From Candidatus Aminicenantota bacterium (lineage in GTDB: Bacteria > Acidobacteriota > Aminicenantia > UBA2199), in contig JADFDP010000020.1 in NCBI GenBank assembly GCA_018262835.1, forward strand, positions 1 through 35,386: 35,386 bases of DNA. The letters run 5' to 3'. This document shows positions 2,291-35,386 of this stretch, one piece after another (the first letter of the stretch is position 1; every line of letters begins with the position of its first letter). The position numbers and the translations under genes are program-made. The notes beneath the pieces were generated by a model that made no database searches, was not told the origin of the DNA, and saw only the letters and a program-made list of their open reading frames with translations.

Positions 2291-3715
2291 ATGAACAGGG
2301 AAATGGCTTTCTTTTTGAACGGTACGGCGGTGCGCAGCACCCTGCCGCCCGGGACCGTGCTCCTCGATTTCATCCGCCGCGACCAACGCCTGACCGGCAC
2401 GCGCGAAGGCTGCCGCGAAGGCGATTGCGGCGCCTGCACCGTCCTGCTGGGCCGCTTGGAAAACGGCGCTGTCCGCTATCGGGCCGTGGTTTCCTGCCTG
2501 CTGCCCCTGGCCGAGGCCGAAAGCTGCCATGTGGTCACCATCGAGGGGCTGAACGGCAAAGACCTGACCCCGGTGCAGCAGGCCTTGGTCAGCGAAGGGG
2601 GCAGCCAGTGCGGCTTCTGCACCCCGGGCATGGTCGTCAGCCTGACCAGCTTCCTGCTCAACAGCCGGGAACTGCAGAGCGATGAGGCCATCACGGCCAT
2701 CGAGGGCAACCTCTGCCGCTGCACCGGCTATGTTTCGATCCGCCGAGCCGTGGAAAAGCTGCTGCGCCAGGTCCGCCCCGGGCTGCAGGCCGCTCCCGAC
2801 CGGCTGGCGGCGCTTTGCGGGCTGGGCATTTTGCCCGCTTATTTTCCCGCCATGCCCGCGCGCCTGTCGGCCCTGGCGGCGGGAGCGCCCCGGGAGCCGG
2901 GCCCGGGAAAAACCGCCGTGGTCGTGGCCGGCGGCACCGACCTTTACGTGCAGCGAGGCAGCGAGCTTCCGGAAAAAGAACTGCGACTCCTCTCCCGGCA
3001 GCCGGGATTTTCCGGGATCTGGCCGTCCGCCGGCCGCATCTTCATCGGCGCCGCCACGACCGTGGCCGAAATCATGGAATCGTCCTTGCTGGCGGCCGCC
3101 CTGCCCGGGCTGGCCGCCTGCCTGGGCCGGGTCTCCTCCACCCAGGTCCGCAACCGGGCCACCGTCGGCGGCAACATCGTCAACGCCTCGCCCATCGGCG
3201 ACCTGAGCGTCATCGCCCTGGCCCTGGACGCCGGCATCGGGTTGCGCGGCCGCGGCCGTGTGCGCGAAATGGCCCTGCGCGATTTCTTCCTGGGCTACAA
3301 AAAGCTGGCTTTGCGAAAAAACGAGACCGTGGCCTGGATCAGCGTGCCGCTGACTAAAAACGGCGTCTCCTTCCATTTCGAGAAGGTGGCCCGGCGCCAA
3401 TACCAGGATATCGCCTCGGTAAATTCGGCCCTGGGCCTGGAAATGGCCGGGGAACGCATCGCGGCCGCCCATGTTTCGGCCGGCGGCGTGGCCCCGGTGC
3501 CCTTGTACTTGCGCGCCGCATCGGCATTTTTAATCGGTAAAACGGTCTCGCCGGCCTTGGTCAGGGAATGGGCCGCCATAGCCGAAACCGAGATCGCCCC
3601 GATCAGCGATGTCCGCGGTTCGGCGCCATACAAGAAATCGCTGCTGCGCCGCCTGCTGTTCGCCCATTTCCTGGACTTGTTCCCCGGGCGCCTGAATGCC
3701 GGAGAACTGCCGTGA
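2291..3715 (+). CDS. Xanthine dehydrogenase-type small subunit: [2Fe-2S] and FAD domains fused
   Basis: This is the electron-transfer subunit of a molybdenum hydroxylase, passing electrons from the Mo site through two [2Fe-2S] centres to FAD. Residues about 1-165 hold the plant-type cluster motif (GCREGDCGACTVLLG) and the helical second cluster (CGFCTPGM ... GNLCRCTGY). Residues about 175-470 are the FAD-binding domain, with VAGGTDLYVQ and ATVGGNIVNASPIGD. Length is 474 residues, right for the bacterial fused form; in the E. coli ygf cluster these domains are split between YgfM and XdhD. The start is the ATG at 2291, though GTG 2288 or ATG 2303 are possible because no good ribosome binding site is visible. 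It overlaps the Mo subunit by four bases (GTGA), so the two are surely co-translated. Confidence 0.93.
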   Translation: MNREMAFFLNGTAVRSTLPPGTVLLDFIRRDQRLTGTREGCREGDCGACTVLLGRLENGAVRYRAVVSCLLPLAEAESCHVVTIEGLNGKDLTPVQQALVSEGGSQCGFCTPGMVVSLTSFLLNSRELQSDEAITAIEGNLCRCTGYVSIRRAVEKLLRQVRPGLQAAPDRLAALCGLGILPAYFPAMPARLSALAAGAPREPGPGKTAVVVAGGTDLYVQRGSELPEKELRLLSRQPGFSGIWPSAGRIFIGAATTVAEIMESSLLAAALPGLAACLGRVSSTQVRNRATVGGNIVNASPIGDLSVIALALDAGIGLRGRGRVREMALRDFFLGYKKLALRKNETVAWISVPLTKNGVSFHFEKVARRQYQDIASVNSALGLEMAGERIAAAHVSAGGVAPVPLYLRAASAFLIGKTVSPALVREWAAIAETEIAPISDVRGSAPYKKSLLRRLLFAHFLDLFPGRLNAGELP

Positions 3716-15951: not shown

Positions 15952-16905
15952 ATGGACCCCGCATCCTTGTCCCTCTATCTGGCCTACCTGGCCGTGATGG
16001 CCCTGGCTTGGTGGTACGGCCTGCGCCTCGTCCGCTCCTTCCGCTTCTACTTCCTGCCGGCCTTCCTCGGCTACCTGGTGACGCTCAACCTCGTCGCCCT
16101 GGTCAACCTGGTGGTCAACGTCCTGTCGGCGGAGATCCTGCGGCCGCTGCCGCCGGCGGGCCTGTTGCGCGTCTACATGCTGTTCGGCCTGGTGGCCATC
16201 CCGCTGCTGGCGGTCTCCTTTTATTTCCTGCTGGCCTTCGTTTCCGGCCTGCTCGACCGCGAGCTGCCGGCCTGGGCGCGCGGGGCCTACGCGGCGCTGT
16301 GGCTGGCCTTCGCCGCCCTGTTCATCCTGCGCATCCACTTCGAGCTGCGCGGGCAGCCGCTGCCGTGGGTCGAGCGGTTGTATGGCGCGTTCAGCAGCAT
16401 GATCATCGTCATCCCGCTCGTGGTCCTGGCCGTACTGGCCTGGCAGCTGCACCGGCGGCGGGCCGAGCCCGATATGAAGGAATTTCGCTGGTTCGCCGCC
16501 GCCGCCCTGTTCGGCTGCTTCCTCTACCTGGCCGCCGCGTTCATTGGGCAGCTCGGCAACCGCTACCGCTGGCTGACGCCCCTGCTCCTGTTCCTGGCCA
16601 ACTTCCTGCCGCTGCTGAGCCTGAAGCGTGCCCTGGCCCGCCATTTCCGCCCCGTGCCCCACGGCCCGACCGTGGCGCCGGCGCTGGCCGCCTTCGCCGC
16701 CCATTATCGCCTGTCAGAGCGCGAGCGCGAGATCCTCGACCTGCTGCTGCTGGGCAAGAGCAACAAGGAGATCGACAGCGAGCTCTTCATCTCGGCGCAC
16801 ACCGTGCGCAACCACGTGCACAACATCTACGAGAAGCTCGGCGTGGGCAGCCGCCTGCAGCTGATGAACAGCGTGCGCTCCTGGCTGGAGAAGCAGAACG
16901 CCTGA
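15952..16905 (+). CDS. Membrane-bound LuxR-type transcriptional regulator
   Basis: A one-component regulator of 317 residues joining about seven N-terminal membrane helices (residues about 5-225) to a C-terminal LuxR/NarL helix-turn-helix (about 250-315). The HTH reads LSEREREILDLLLLGKSNKEI ... HTVRNHVHNIYEKLGV, including the family's recognition helix. No receiver or autoinducer-binding domain is present, so the membrane part presumably senses the signal. The track ORF begins at 15592 but runs over the divergent promoter region. I choose the ATG at 15952 because the hydrophobic helices start there and a consensus promoter ends six bases upstream. It probably binds the palindrome at 15,872 and controls itself and the divergent hydrolase. 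Confidence 0.88.
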   Translation: MDPASLSLYLAYLAVMALAWWYGLRLVRSFRFYFLPAFLGYLVTLNLVALVNLVVNVLSAEILRPLPPAGLLRVYMLFGLVAIPLLAVSFYFLLAFVSGLLDRELPAWARGAYAALWLAFAALFILRIHFELRGQPLPWVERLYGAFSSMIIVIPLVVLAVLAWQLHRRRAEPDMKEFRWFAAAALFGCFLYLAAAFIGQLGNRYRWLTPLLLFLANFLPLLSLKRALARHFRPVPHGPTVAPALAAFAAHYRLSEREREILDLLLLGKSNKEIDSELFISAHTVRNHVHNIYEKLGVGSRLQLMNSVRSWLEKQNA

Positions 16906-16911
16906 GAGATA

Positions 16912-17146
16912 AGATTCCAAATTACAAGCAGCAAATTCCAAATAAATTCCAATAGCCGAATTCCCATGACCCAAACAAAGAGAACAAGCAATCGTTAATG
17001 GGTTGATGAGTAAATGAGGCAACCGCTTAGGTTCATATTGCTTGCTCGCTCTTTTTTTTGACTTCTAACTTCGGATCTCAATGATCGATCCATCGCCTGA
17101 TTTTTCAACTTCGAACATCGAACGTCGAACTTCGAACCTCCTTCTT
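16912..17146. repeat. AATTCCAA-word array and NTCGAAC array
   Basis: Bases 16912-16982 are degenerate CAAATTCCAA words ending in CCATGACCCAAACAAAG. The same order recurs at 27,495 and, inverted, at 29,357. About 120 bases without a clear feature follow, then six tandem NTCGAAC-type words at 17104-17142 just upstream of the PHP gene. Confidence 0.7.
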
Positions 17147-29110: not shown

Positions 29111-29424
29111 CTGTGTTAGCGATAGTGTTGGTAGCGAGCAGAATATTGAATTGTTTAGCCGATCAATTGCTGTTATTGAGACTAACACTTAGATTTAGCT
29201 CGTTAAAGTTACAGCTCGGCCTCTAACACTGTTTTTCTTCAACGTCGAACATCGAACATCAAGAAGGGCGGGTCCCAGACCGCGCCCCTACGATTCTGTG
29301 TCTTTTCTTCAACTTCGAACTTCGAACGTCGAACATCGAACCTCGTCCTTTGCCTTCGTTTGGGTCATTGGAATTTGGATGTTGGAATTTATTTGGAATT
29401 TGGTGCTTGGAATTTGGGATTTGA
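29111..29424. repeat. Mosaic of four repeat families
   Basis: Bases 29111-29231 are GTGTTAGCGATAG and CTAACACT words around the shared ACTTAGATTTAGCTCGTTAA block. Bases 29239-29262 and 29308-29345 are TCGAAC arrays. Bases 29264-29297 are the AAGGGCGGGTCCCAGAC hairpin. Bases 29357-29424 are the TTGGAATTTGG array. No gene is seen from 29,048 to 29,466. Confidence 0.75.
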
Positions 29425-33298: not shown

Positions 33299-33823
33299 TT
33301 GGCAAATAGCAGCGCGCTCATCCCCGCGGAACGCATCGATCGGCTGATCATCATGGTCCGCGGGCAAAAGGTGATCCTGGACCGGGATTTGGCGGCGCTA
33401 TATGGTGTGTCGACTGGGAACCTGAACAAGGCGGTATCCCGCAATTTGGATCGCTTCCCTGAAGATTTCATGATTCAATTGACCCATGAGGAATTGCGCG
33501 GCTTGATATTCCATTTTGGAACATCAAGTTGGGGCGGCACCCGGAAACCCCCGCGGGCCTTCACCGAACAGGGGGTGGCCATGCTCTCCAGCGTGCTGCG
33601 CGGCAAGCGCGCCGTGCATGTCAACATCGAGATCATGCGCGCTTTTGTCCGCCTGCGGCGCATGCTCCAGGCAAATACCGTATTGGCCCGCCAACTTAGG
33701 GACTTGGAGAAAAAGTACGATTCCCAGTTCAAGGTGGTTTTCGACGCCATCCGGCAGTTAATGACTCCACCGTCCGGGAAGCCGCGCCAGATCGGGTTCA
33801 AAAATGACGAACCCGACAAGTGA
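33299..33823 (+). CDS. ORF6N (KilA-N-type) DNA-binding domain protein
   Basis: A 174-residue protein with an ORF6N domain, found in phage antirepressors and in many bacterial accessory loci. Signatures are [46 protein letters not shown] and [36 protein letters not shown]-terminal helical, probably coiled-coil tail follows ([31 protein letters not shown]). It starts at TTG 33299 with GAGGAG seven bases upstream. Base composition is close to the host, unlike the AT-rich genes further on. Probably a DNA-binding regulator of a mobile or defence locus; no partner gene is adjacent. Confidence 0.9.
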
Positions 33824-34180: not shown

Positions 34181-34345
34181 ATGAATCAAAAGAAGTTCGA
34201 AGGATTGATAAAAGAGATCCTGAAATTCCGCGACAAAAGAGACTGGGCGCAGTTCCATGATCCGAAGAACCTGGCTGGGCTAAAATTGGGAAAAATAAAT
34301 AATAGTGAAAGACCTAGTACCGATGTCTTCTTTAATTGGAGGTAA
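34181..34345 (+). pseudogene. Truncated start of a MazG-like nucleotide pyrophosphohydrolase gene, copy 2
   Basis: The 54-codon frame reads MNQKKFEGLIKEILKFRDKRDWAQFHDPKNLAGLKL, which matches the first helices of MazG-like pyrophosphohydrolases (typically RDWEQFH followed by LA and the EAAELLE catalytic helix). It then runs into an unrelated, AT-rich tail, GKINNSERPSTDVFFNWR, and stops. The family match breaks off around 34,280, and composition changes there. The stop lies six bases before the TIR gene, whose GGAGG ribosome binding site lies inside the last codons of the fragment, so the fragment's translation may feed that of the TIR gene. Confidence 0.65.
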
Positions 34346-34351
34346 TATTAA

Positions 34352-34855
34352 ATGAGCTATAGAAACAAAACATTTGTATCATTCGATGGTGATAATGATA
34401 TGCACTACTACAGACTTATGCAGGCATGGAAGCAAAATGAAAATATTTTATTTGATTTTTTTAATGCTCATGATTTGAATAGCGCAAGAGATACAAGTCC
34501 AGAGGAATCGATAAAATCTCAATTGGCAGAAAGATTAAGAAATACAAAAGTATTTGTAATACTTATTGGAGAAAGCACGAGATATTTGTACAAATTTGTC
34601 CGATGGGAAATTGAGCAGGCCATTAAAAGAGATTTGCCAATTATTGCGGTTAACTTGAGTGGGAAAAAGTCACTCGATACTGATAGATGTCCGCCATTAC
34701 TTAGTGATGCATTAGTTATTCATATAAGTTTTAATGCAAAAATCATGCAATATGCATTAGAGAATTGGCCAGATTCACATGAAAAATATAGAAAAGAAGG
34801 TAAAAGTGGCTCTTATTATTATAAAGAGGAAGTATATAATGGGTTAGGGATATGA
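34352..34855 (+). CDS. thsB: Thoeris ThsB-like TIR-domain protein
   Basis: A 167-residue protein made almost wholly of a MTH538-type TIR-like domain, the form found in Thoeris ThsB. The fold is visible as NKTFVSFDGDND (first strand), AHDLNSARDTSPEESIKSQL, KVFVILIGEST, and LYKFVRWEIEQAI, where Glu86/Glu88 lie in the catalytic helix, then LPIIAVNLSG. In Thoeris, ThsB senses phage and makes an NAD-derived signal that activates ThsA. The gene is about two-thirds AT, unlike its upstream neighbours, which points to recent transfer. It overlaps the next gene by four bases (ATGA). GGAGG lies nine bases before the ATG. The pairing with a membrane macro-like protein suggests the type II form. Confidence 0.87.
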   Translation: MSYRNKTFVSFDGDNDMHYYRLMQAWKQNENILFDFFNAHDLNSARDTSPEESIKSQLAERLRNTKVFVILIGESTRYLYKFVRWEIEQAIKRDLPIIAVNLSGKKSLDTDRCPPLLSDALVIHISFNAKIMQYALENWPDSHEKYRKEGKSGSYYYKEEVYNGLGI

Positions 34856-35386
34856 ATTTAGAATTGACACTTTTTAAAATTAAATTGTGGGCAAAAAATT
34901 TAATTAGTATAAAAGCTTTATCAGCTGTTTTAAGTTCATTTGGGTCTCTTTGGTTGGTTGTAGAAATTGTTTCTTTCTTTTGGGAAAAAACCATCTTTAT
35001 AGAAAAAGTTAAAGGCTTTTGGTTTTTATTTTTATTTGCAGGCGTCATTACTGCCATTTTCACATGTAAACCAAAACTATCGTATGGATGTAAACTCAAT
35101 AATCGGGATATATATATTGAGCTTGTTATTGGAGATTTGTTTAAATACAAAGGGGCTTTAATAATAGGTTCAAATACTACTTTTGATACTAAAATCTCTC
35201 GTGAATTGATTTCTGGAAAAAGTATTCAAGGCCAATTTACAAAAAGATATTATGGCGACGAAACACAGCTCAACAAAGAAATACAGGTTGGGCTATATAG
35301 TATAACACCAGAAATACTTCCAGGAAGTCGAATTGGAAAATCTAATAGATATCCAATAGGTACTGTGGTTAGATTGAACCCTAAGG
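34852..35386 (+). CDS. thsA: Membrane-anchored macro-domain-like protein, ThsA of type II Thoeris, 3' partial
   Basis: The frame opens at ATG 34852 and runs off the window after 178 codons, which is why the track missed it. Two membrane helices come first: residues about 22-43 (LSAVLSSFGSLWLVVEIVSFF) and 56-72 (FWFLFLFAGVITAIF). From about residue 85 the sequence reads DIYIELVIGDLFKYKGALIIGSNTTFDT, the opening strands and ligand loop of a macro-like (DUF6430-type) domain, then SGKSIQGQFTKRYYG. In type II Thoeris, ThsA has this two-helix plus macro plan, binds the TIR-made His-ADPR signal, and is thought to attack the membrane. The AT-rich composition equals that of thsB. Assignment rests on recognition of family and architecture, without the C-terminus. 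Confidence 0.82.
   Translation, partial: MNLELTLFKIKLWAKNLISIKALSAVLSSFGSLWLVVEIVSFFWEKTIFIEKVKGFWFLFLFAGVITAIFTCKPKLSYGCKLNNRDIYIELVIGDLFKYKGALIIGSNTTFDTKISRELISGKSIQGQFTKRYYGDETQLNKEIQVGLYSITPEILPGSRIGKSNRYPIGTVVRLNPK

Follow-up and report, generated by a model that had tools for sequence, protein, structure and literature searches.

A probable type II Thoeris operon at a contig end, with phenylalanine in place of the active-site tyrosine of its ThsB protein

The closest described relatives of the locus analysed here are two type II Thoeris systems, the TM-macro system of Escherichia coli, in which EcThsB2 and EcThsA (PDB 8V6T, 8V6Q, and 8V6R) are accompanied by a second ThsB, EcThsB1 (PMC11204291), and the BaThs system of Bacillus amyloliquefaciens Y2, in which a single ThsB is paired with a TM-macro ThsA. 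What has been described about the trigger, the signal, effector clustering, and killing comes from studies of these two systems (PMC11204291; PMC12847820; PMC12360287). In EcThsB2, Tyr8 lies within hydrogen-bond distance of the catalytic residue Glu89 (Shi et al., PMC11204291). Such an active-site Tyr is confined to the ThsB proteins of TM-macro systems, BaThsB among them, and this class has been linked to His-ADPR by way of the B. amyloliquefaciens system; NADase TIRs usually possess Phe or Ala at the same position, EcThsB2 exhibited no NADase activity in vitro, and EcThsB1 forms ADPR and base-exchange products (PMC11204291).

The window, by which we mean the whole stretch of DNA that was analysed, is one entire contig of 35,386 bases from a genome of 2.73 Mb that was assembled into 160 contigs and is 81% complete. 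Its final kilobase contains a complete thsB gene followed by the 5' part of thsA (Table 1), and the two frames overlap by the four bases ATGA at 34852-34855, as proposed in the initial annotation. That annotation had also described the pair as AT-rich in a GC-rich genome and the second gene as lacking a stop codon in the window, both of which were borne out: the GC contents of thsB and thsA are 0.32 and 0.31 compared to 0.61 for bases 1-34000, and thsA is still open where the contig stops. As in BaThs, one ThsB is paired with a TM-macro ThsA, whereas the E. coli operon encodes a second ThsB that has no counterpart in the window, the sequence of which ends within thsA. On the basis of the results described below, we consider it very probable that the genes belong to a type II (TM-macro) Thoeris abortive-infection operon that was acquired horizontally and that the assembly has cut short, a natural truncation not being demonstrable.

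Table 1. Features at the 3' end of the window
Feature	Position	Strand	Description
54-residue open frame	34181-34345	+	probably no gene; partly repeat and its conserved upstream flank
Dispersed repeat copy TAATAGTGAAAGACCTAGTACCGATG	34300-34325	+	26 bases 5' of thsB; genus-wide repeat
GGAGG-type motif	34338-34344	+	likely ribosome-binding site, about 9 bases 5' of the thsB ATG, as read from the sequence
thsB	34352-34855	+	complete, 167 aa, ATG to TGA
thsA, 5' part	34852-35386	+	178 aa, open at contig end

The identification of the first gene product as a ThsB-type TIR protein rests on concordant sequence and fold comparisons. The protein matched Pfam family PF08937 (ThsB_TIR) above the family cut-off (1.7e-21) and all 167 positions of the PADLOC ThsB profile (2.6e-81), and a sequence search of the PDB aligned its whole length with 8v6t (9.5e-35), the crystal structure of EcThsB2 that was deposited as 'Molecular chaperone Tir'; an NCBIfam search gave no match for this protein. 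An AlphaFold2 model built with 29 sequences as input (pLDDT 88, pTM 0.86) again returned 8v6t as the best Foldseek match (TM 0.83, E 1.6e-16), and the second-ranked fold scored far lower. The two proteins are of the same size and fold, and they are 44% identical over 163 aligned columns, or 40% over 168-173 columns in the structure match. Alignment placed E86 on the catalytic E89 of EcThsB2, so that the TIR domain has the catalytic Glu that the earlier reading called for, and Glu occupied this column in all 41 of the aligned sequences covering it. The Tyr-bearing C-terminal tail is likewise common to both proteins; its residues Y157, Y162, L165, and G166 are conserved in the alignment, and residues 154-164 form a strand and a helix in the AlphaFold2 model.

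The second protein was examined in the same manner, using the 178 residues present. The initial annotation had assigned it two membrane helices followed by a macro-like domain, and both elements were recovered. Hydropathy peaks in two 19-mers at residues 25-43 and 53-71 (Kyte-Doolittle values of 1.84 and 1.87) predict transmembrane segments, and the AlphaFold2 model (pLDDT 88, pTM 0.62) shows helices at 20-43 and 57-71. C-terminal to both helices, residues 89-178 constitute the N-terminal half of the macro domain, matching positions 1-90 of the 183 in PF20016 ('Thoeris protein ThsA, Macro domain') at 8.1e-23, and the PADLOC ThsA profile was matched at 2.4e-35. The only PDB sequence matches were to ThsA macro domains, and the only confident Foldseek matches were 8v6q, 8v6r, and 8r66, the macro domains of EcThsA and BaThsA (probability 1.00); the accompanying E values of 0.003-0.008 are in the range to be expected for just half a domain. 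Entry 8R66, which we take to be the BaThs ThsA macro domain, contains the signal and matches the window protein in both sequence and fold; compared with BaThs, only half of this domain is present in the window sequence. EcThsA has the same arrangement, with membrane helices ahead of a macro domain that belongs to this family. Pfam and PADLOC searches of the partner protein gave no match to SIR2 or SLOG, the domains that would mark a type I system. The Pfam, PADLOC, PDB sequence, and fold searches agree for both proteins, with Pfam and PADLOC E values of 1e-21 to 1e-81 that are far beyond chance, and the proposed assignment of the adjacent genes as a type II Thoeris pair is thus supported.

Within the ThsA fragment, the peptide GDLFKYKGALIIGSNTTFDT spans residues 94-113 and includes D95 and D112 (in the motifs GDLF and TFDT), which correspond to D83 and D100 of EcThsA in a numbering that we worked out from the construct given in PMC11204291. 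The position of EcThsA N114 is taken by Gln (SIQG) in the window protein, as it is in most relatives. The ligand-holding residues S217, T220, H259, and K262 of EcThsA are situated in the C-terminal half, and their equivalents were not found in the assembly. The lack of this half of the macro domain from the available sequence counts against taking ThsA as a demonstrably intact, working effector.

By analogy with the published systems, phage infection would switch on the TIR enzyme ThsB, and this enzyme would form an ADP-ribose conjugate from NAD+, in all likelihood histidine-ADPR. Binding of this signal to the macro domain would cause ThsA to cluster by way of its two membrane helices; the clustered protein would then disrupt the membrane, and the phage would be stopped by abortive infection.

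To place the pair among its relatives, we used 40 loci obtained by a scan of genome contigs, the ThsB proteins of which are 32-73% identical to that of the window and come from Fibrobacterota, Verrucomicrobiota, Bacillota, Cyanobacteriota, Chloroflexota, Pseudomonadota, and other phyla. A ThsA-like open reading frame directly follows ThsB in 36 of the 40, in most cases overlapping it by the same ATGA, and it encodes approximately 280-310 aa where intact. The pair is also carried by plasmids of Carnobacterium, Synechococcus, Vibrio, and Enterococcus, in some of which ThsA precedes ThsB. No other ThsB of this kind was detected in 59 related genomes or among 297 genomes sampled from the phylum, and a further search of the phylum provided additional ThsB relatives, all of them distant; phage and viral collections yielded almost nothing close to this protein. 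Parts of the upstream window DNA match the genus well, and this match, together with the low GC of the pair and its absence from the genus, family, and phylum as sampled, fits a horizontal gain. The locus is one more type II Thoeris, gained by transfer in a lineage that seemingly has no other Thoeris of this kind. Two plasmids offered side observations. On a Lactococcus plasmid (L092), an unannotated ThsB-like reading occurs at 3001-3474 between type I restriction-modification genes, where neither a complete ThsB frame nor ThsA was recovered. On a Neorhizobium plasmid (L095), a cluster with several TIR-domain genes, a DNA lyase gene, and a 7-cyano-7-deazaguanine synthase gene includes a relative of ThsB that adjoins a DUF4231 gene, with no macro ThsA detected beside this ThsB-like TIR.

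The pair is otherwise ordinary, one more type II Thoeris, and its unusual point is a Phe where nearly all relatives have Tyr. Residue 8 of the window ThsB, at the column of EcThsB2 Tyr8, is Phe (codon TTT), which also distinguishes the protein from BaThsB; the active-site Tyr, hydrogen-bonded to the catalytic Glu, of the EcThsB2-like ThsB 'subfamily 9' of Shi et al. 2024 is therefore not found in it. The column contains Tyr in 48 of 52 aligned ThsB proteins and Phe in the remaining four, namely that of the window and those of a Chitinispirillia MAG (L004), a Verrucomicrobia MAG (L005), and a Chloroflexota MAG (L016), three hosts that span three phyla. The latter ThsB proteins are 62-72% identical to that of the window, and each is encoded in an ATGA overlap with a gene for ThsA, which is full-length (307-310 aa) in all three but partial in the window. 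Three of the Phe8 proteins group together in a tree (92/82 support) and that of L016 stands apart, which indicates one or two origins of the substitution. Since the residue tied to the His-ADPR class is Phe here, the signal of the window ThsB cannot be read from its active site; the link from an active-site Tyr to His-ADPR, judged from the sequence, does not carry over automatically, and the exact chemistry is the least certain step of the proposed mechanism.

Lacking the Tyr hydroxyl that is hydrogen-bonded to the catalytic Glu in EcThsB2, the Phe8 ThsB of the same type II operon might accordingly yield a different product, for instance another imidazole conjugate or plain ADPR. The residues usual in NADase TIRs and the activities of EcThsB2 and EcThsB1 cited above are compatible with such a change, as is the fact that the Phe occurs in four ThsB proteins that each have a ThsA and sets them apart as the sole dividing column from the other 48. 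Set against this, no other column changes along with Phe8, the remainder of ThsB is typical, being up to 68% identical to Tyr-bearing relatives, and its ThsA partner does not differ in kind. We regard a different product as unlikely, and we assign a similarly low probability to the broader statement that the Phe8 set, from at least three phyla, has natively swapped the Tyr and either makes a different ADPR-based signal or makes the same one without the Tyr hydroxyl. The natural change affects the very residue that has been proposed as the determinant of the chemistry in His-ADPR-type ThsB proteins, and the window protein and its three relatives with complete operons offer natural material, of modest value, bearing on the need for that hydroxyl. 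Two further alternatives concern the integrity of the locus. The pair could be a decayed remnant in which thsA is naturally truncated or broken just beyond the window edge, given that the contig ends at 35386 and that a search of the genome with the C-terminal half of the L004 protein as query, for which there was no within-genome positive control, failed to find the rest of the gene; a family search of the genome similarly returned this ThsA copy alone, with no second copy or remainder. A missing piece is to be expected, however, in a genome that is 81% complete and divided into 160 contigs, both frames are intact up to the last base, and the ThsA proteins of the three nearest Phe8 relatives are full-length, so that decay seems very improbable to us. 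Slightly less probable again is a chimeric contig, in which a Thoeris pair from another organism was joined through misassembly. The sharp GC shift within the final kilobase, the absence of the pair from the related genomes searched, and the dispersed repeat at the junction would suit this explanation, but acquired defence genes are often low in GC, stretches of the upstream DNA match the genus, and the junction copy of the repeat is unlike the other copies seen in the genome, which makes a repeat-driven false join less likely. We thus retain the horizontally acquired type II Thoeris operon, cut by the contig end, as the preferred reading.

The repeat just upstream of thsB marks roughly where the low-GC insert starts and has no part in the defence mechanism. 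The TAATAGTGAAAGACCTAGTACCGATG pattern has one exact match in the window where none is expected, and the core of the dispersed repeat, TAATAATGAAAGACCTGRYMCC, recurs in the majority of the genus's genomes, where its copies are often spaced by 2-3 kb. A conserved flank of the window copy begins at about 34240, and copies were found in loci L069-L077, in the last of which one copy lies directly 3' of a Y1_Tnp (IS200-like) transposase gene; from this position, the repeat is probably associated with a RAYT-type transposase. We also considered it as the boundary of a Thoeris-tied cassette, but its genus-wide distribution and the copy that ends the Y1_Tnp gene are explained more simply by such an association. 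The short open frame that includes the repeat had been a candidate for a truncated MazG-like gene cut by the insert, and this was rejected: the frame has no Pfam match, its DNA is broken by stops in the relatives G006 and G008, and its recurrence with stops in the genus shows that it is at least partly dispersed repeat. Nor is the DNA from 34305 onward the start of an ORF6N gene, as the relatives' copies do not run into ORF6N.

A separate ORF6N-domain gene is located at 33299-33823 (3.3e-31), next to the Thoeris insert; this family is common in phages and mobile elements. Elsewhere in the window, a TTGGAATTTGG-rich, AT-rich repeat of approximately 70 bases occurs at 29352-29422 and again at 16904-16980. 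A stretch containing it folded no better than shuffled sequence, and all of the searched genomes of the genus had very many copies of the repeat, which were 83-95% identical.
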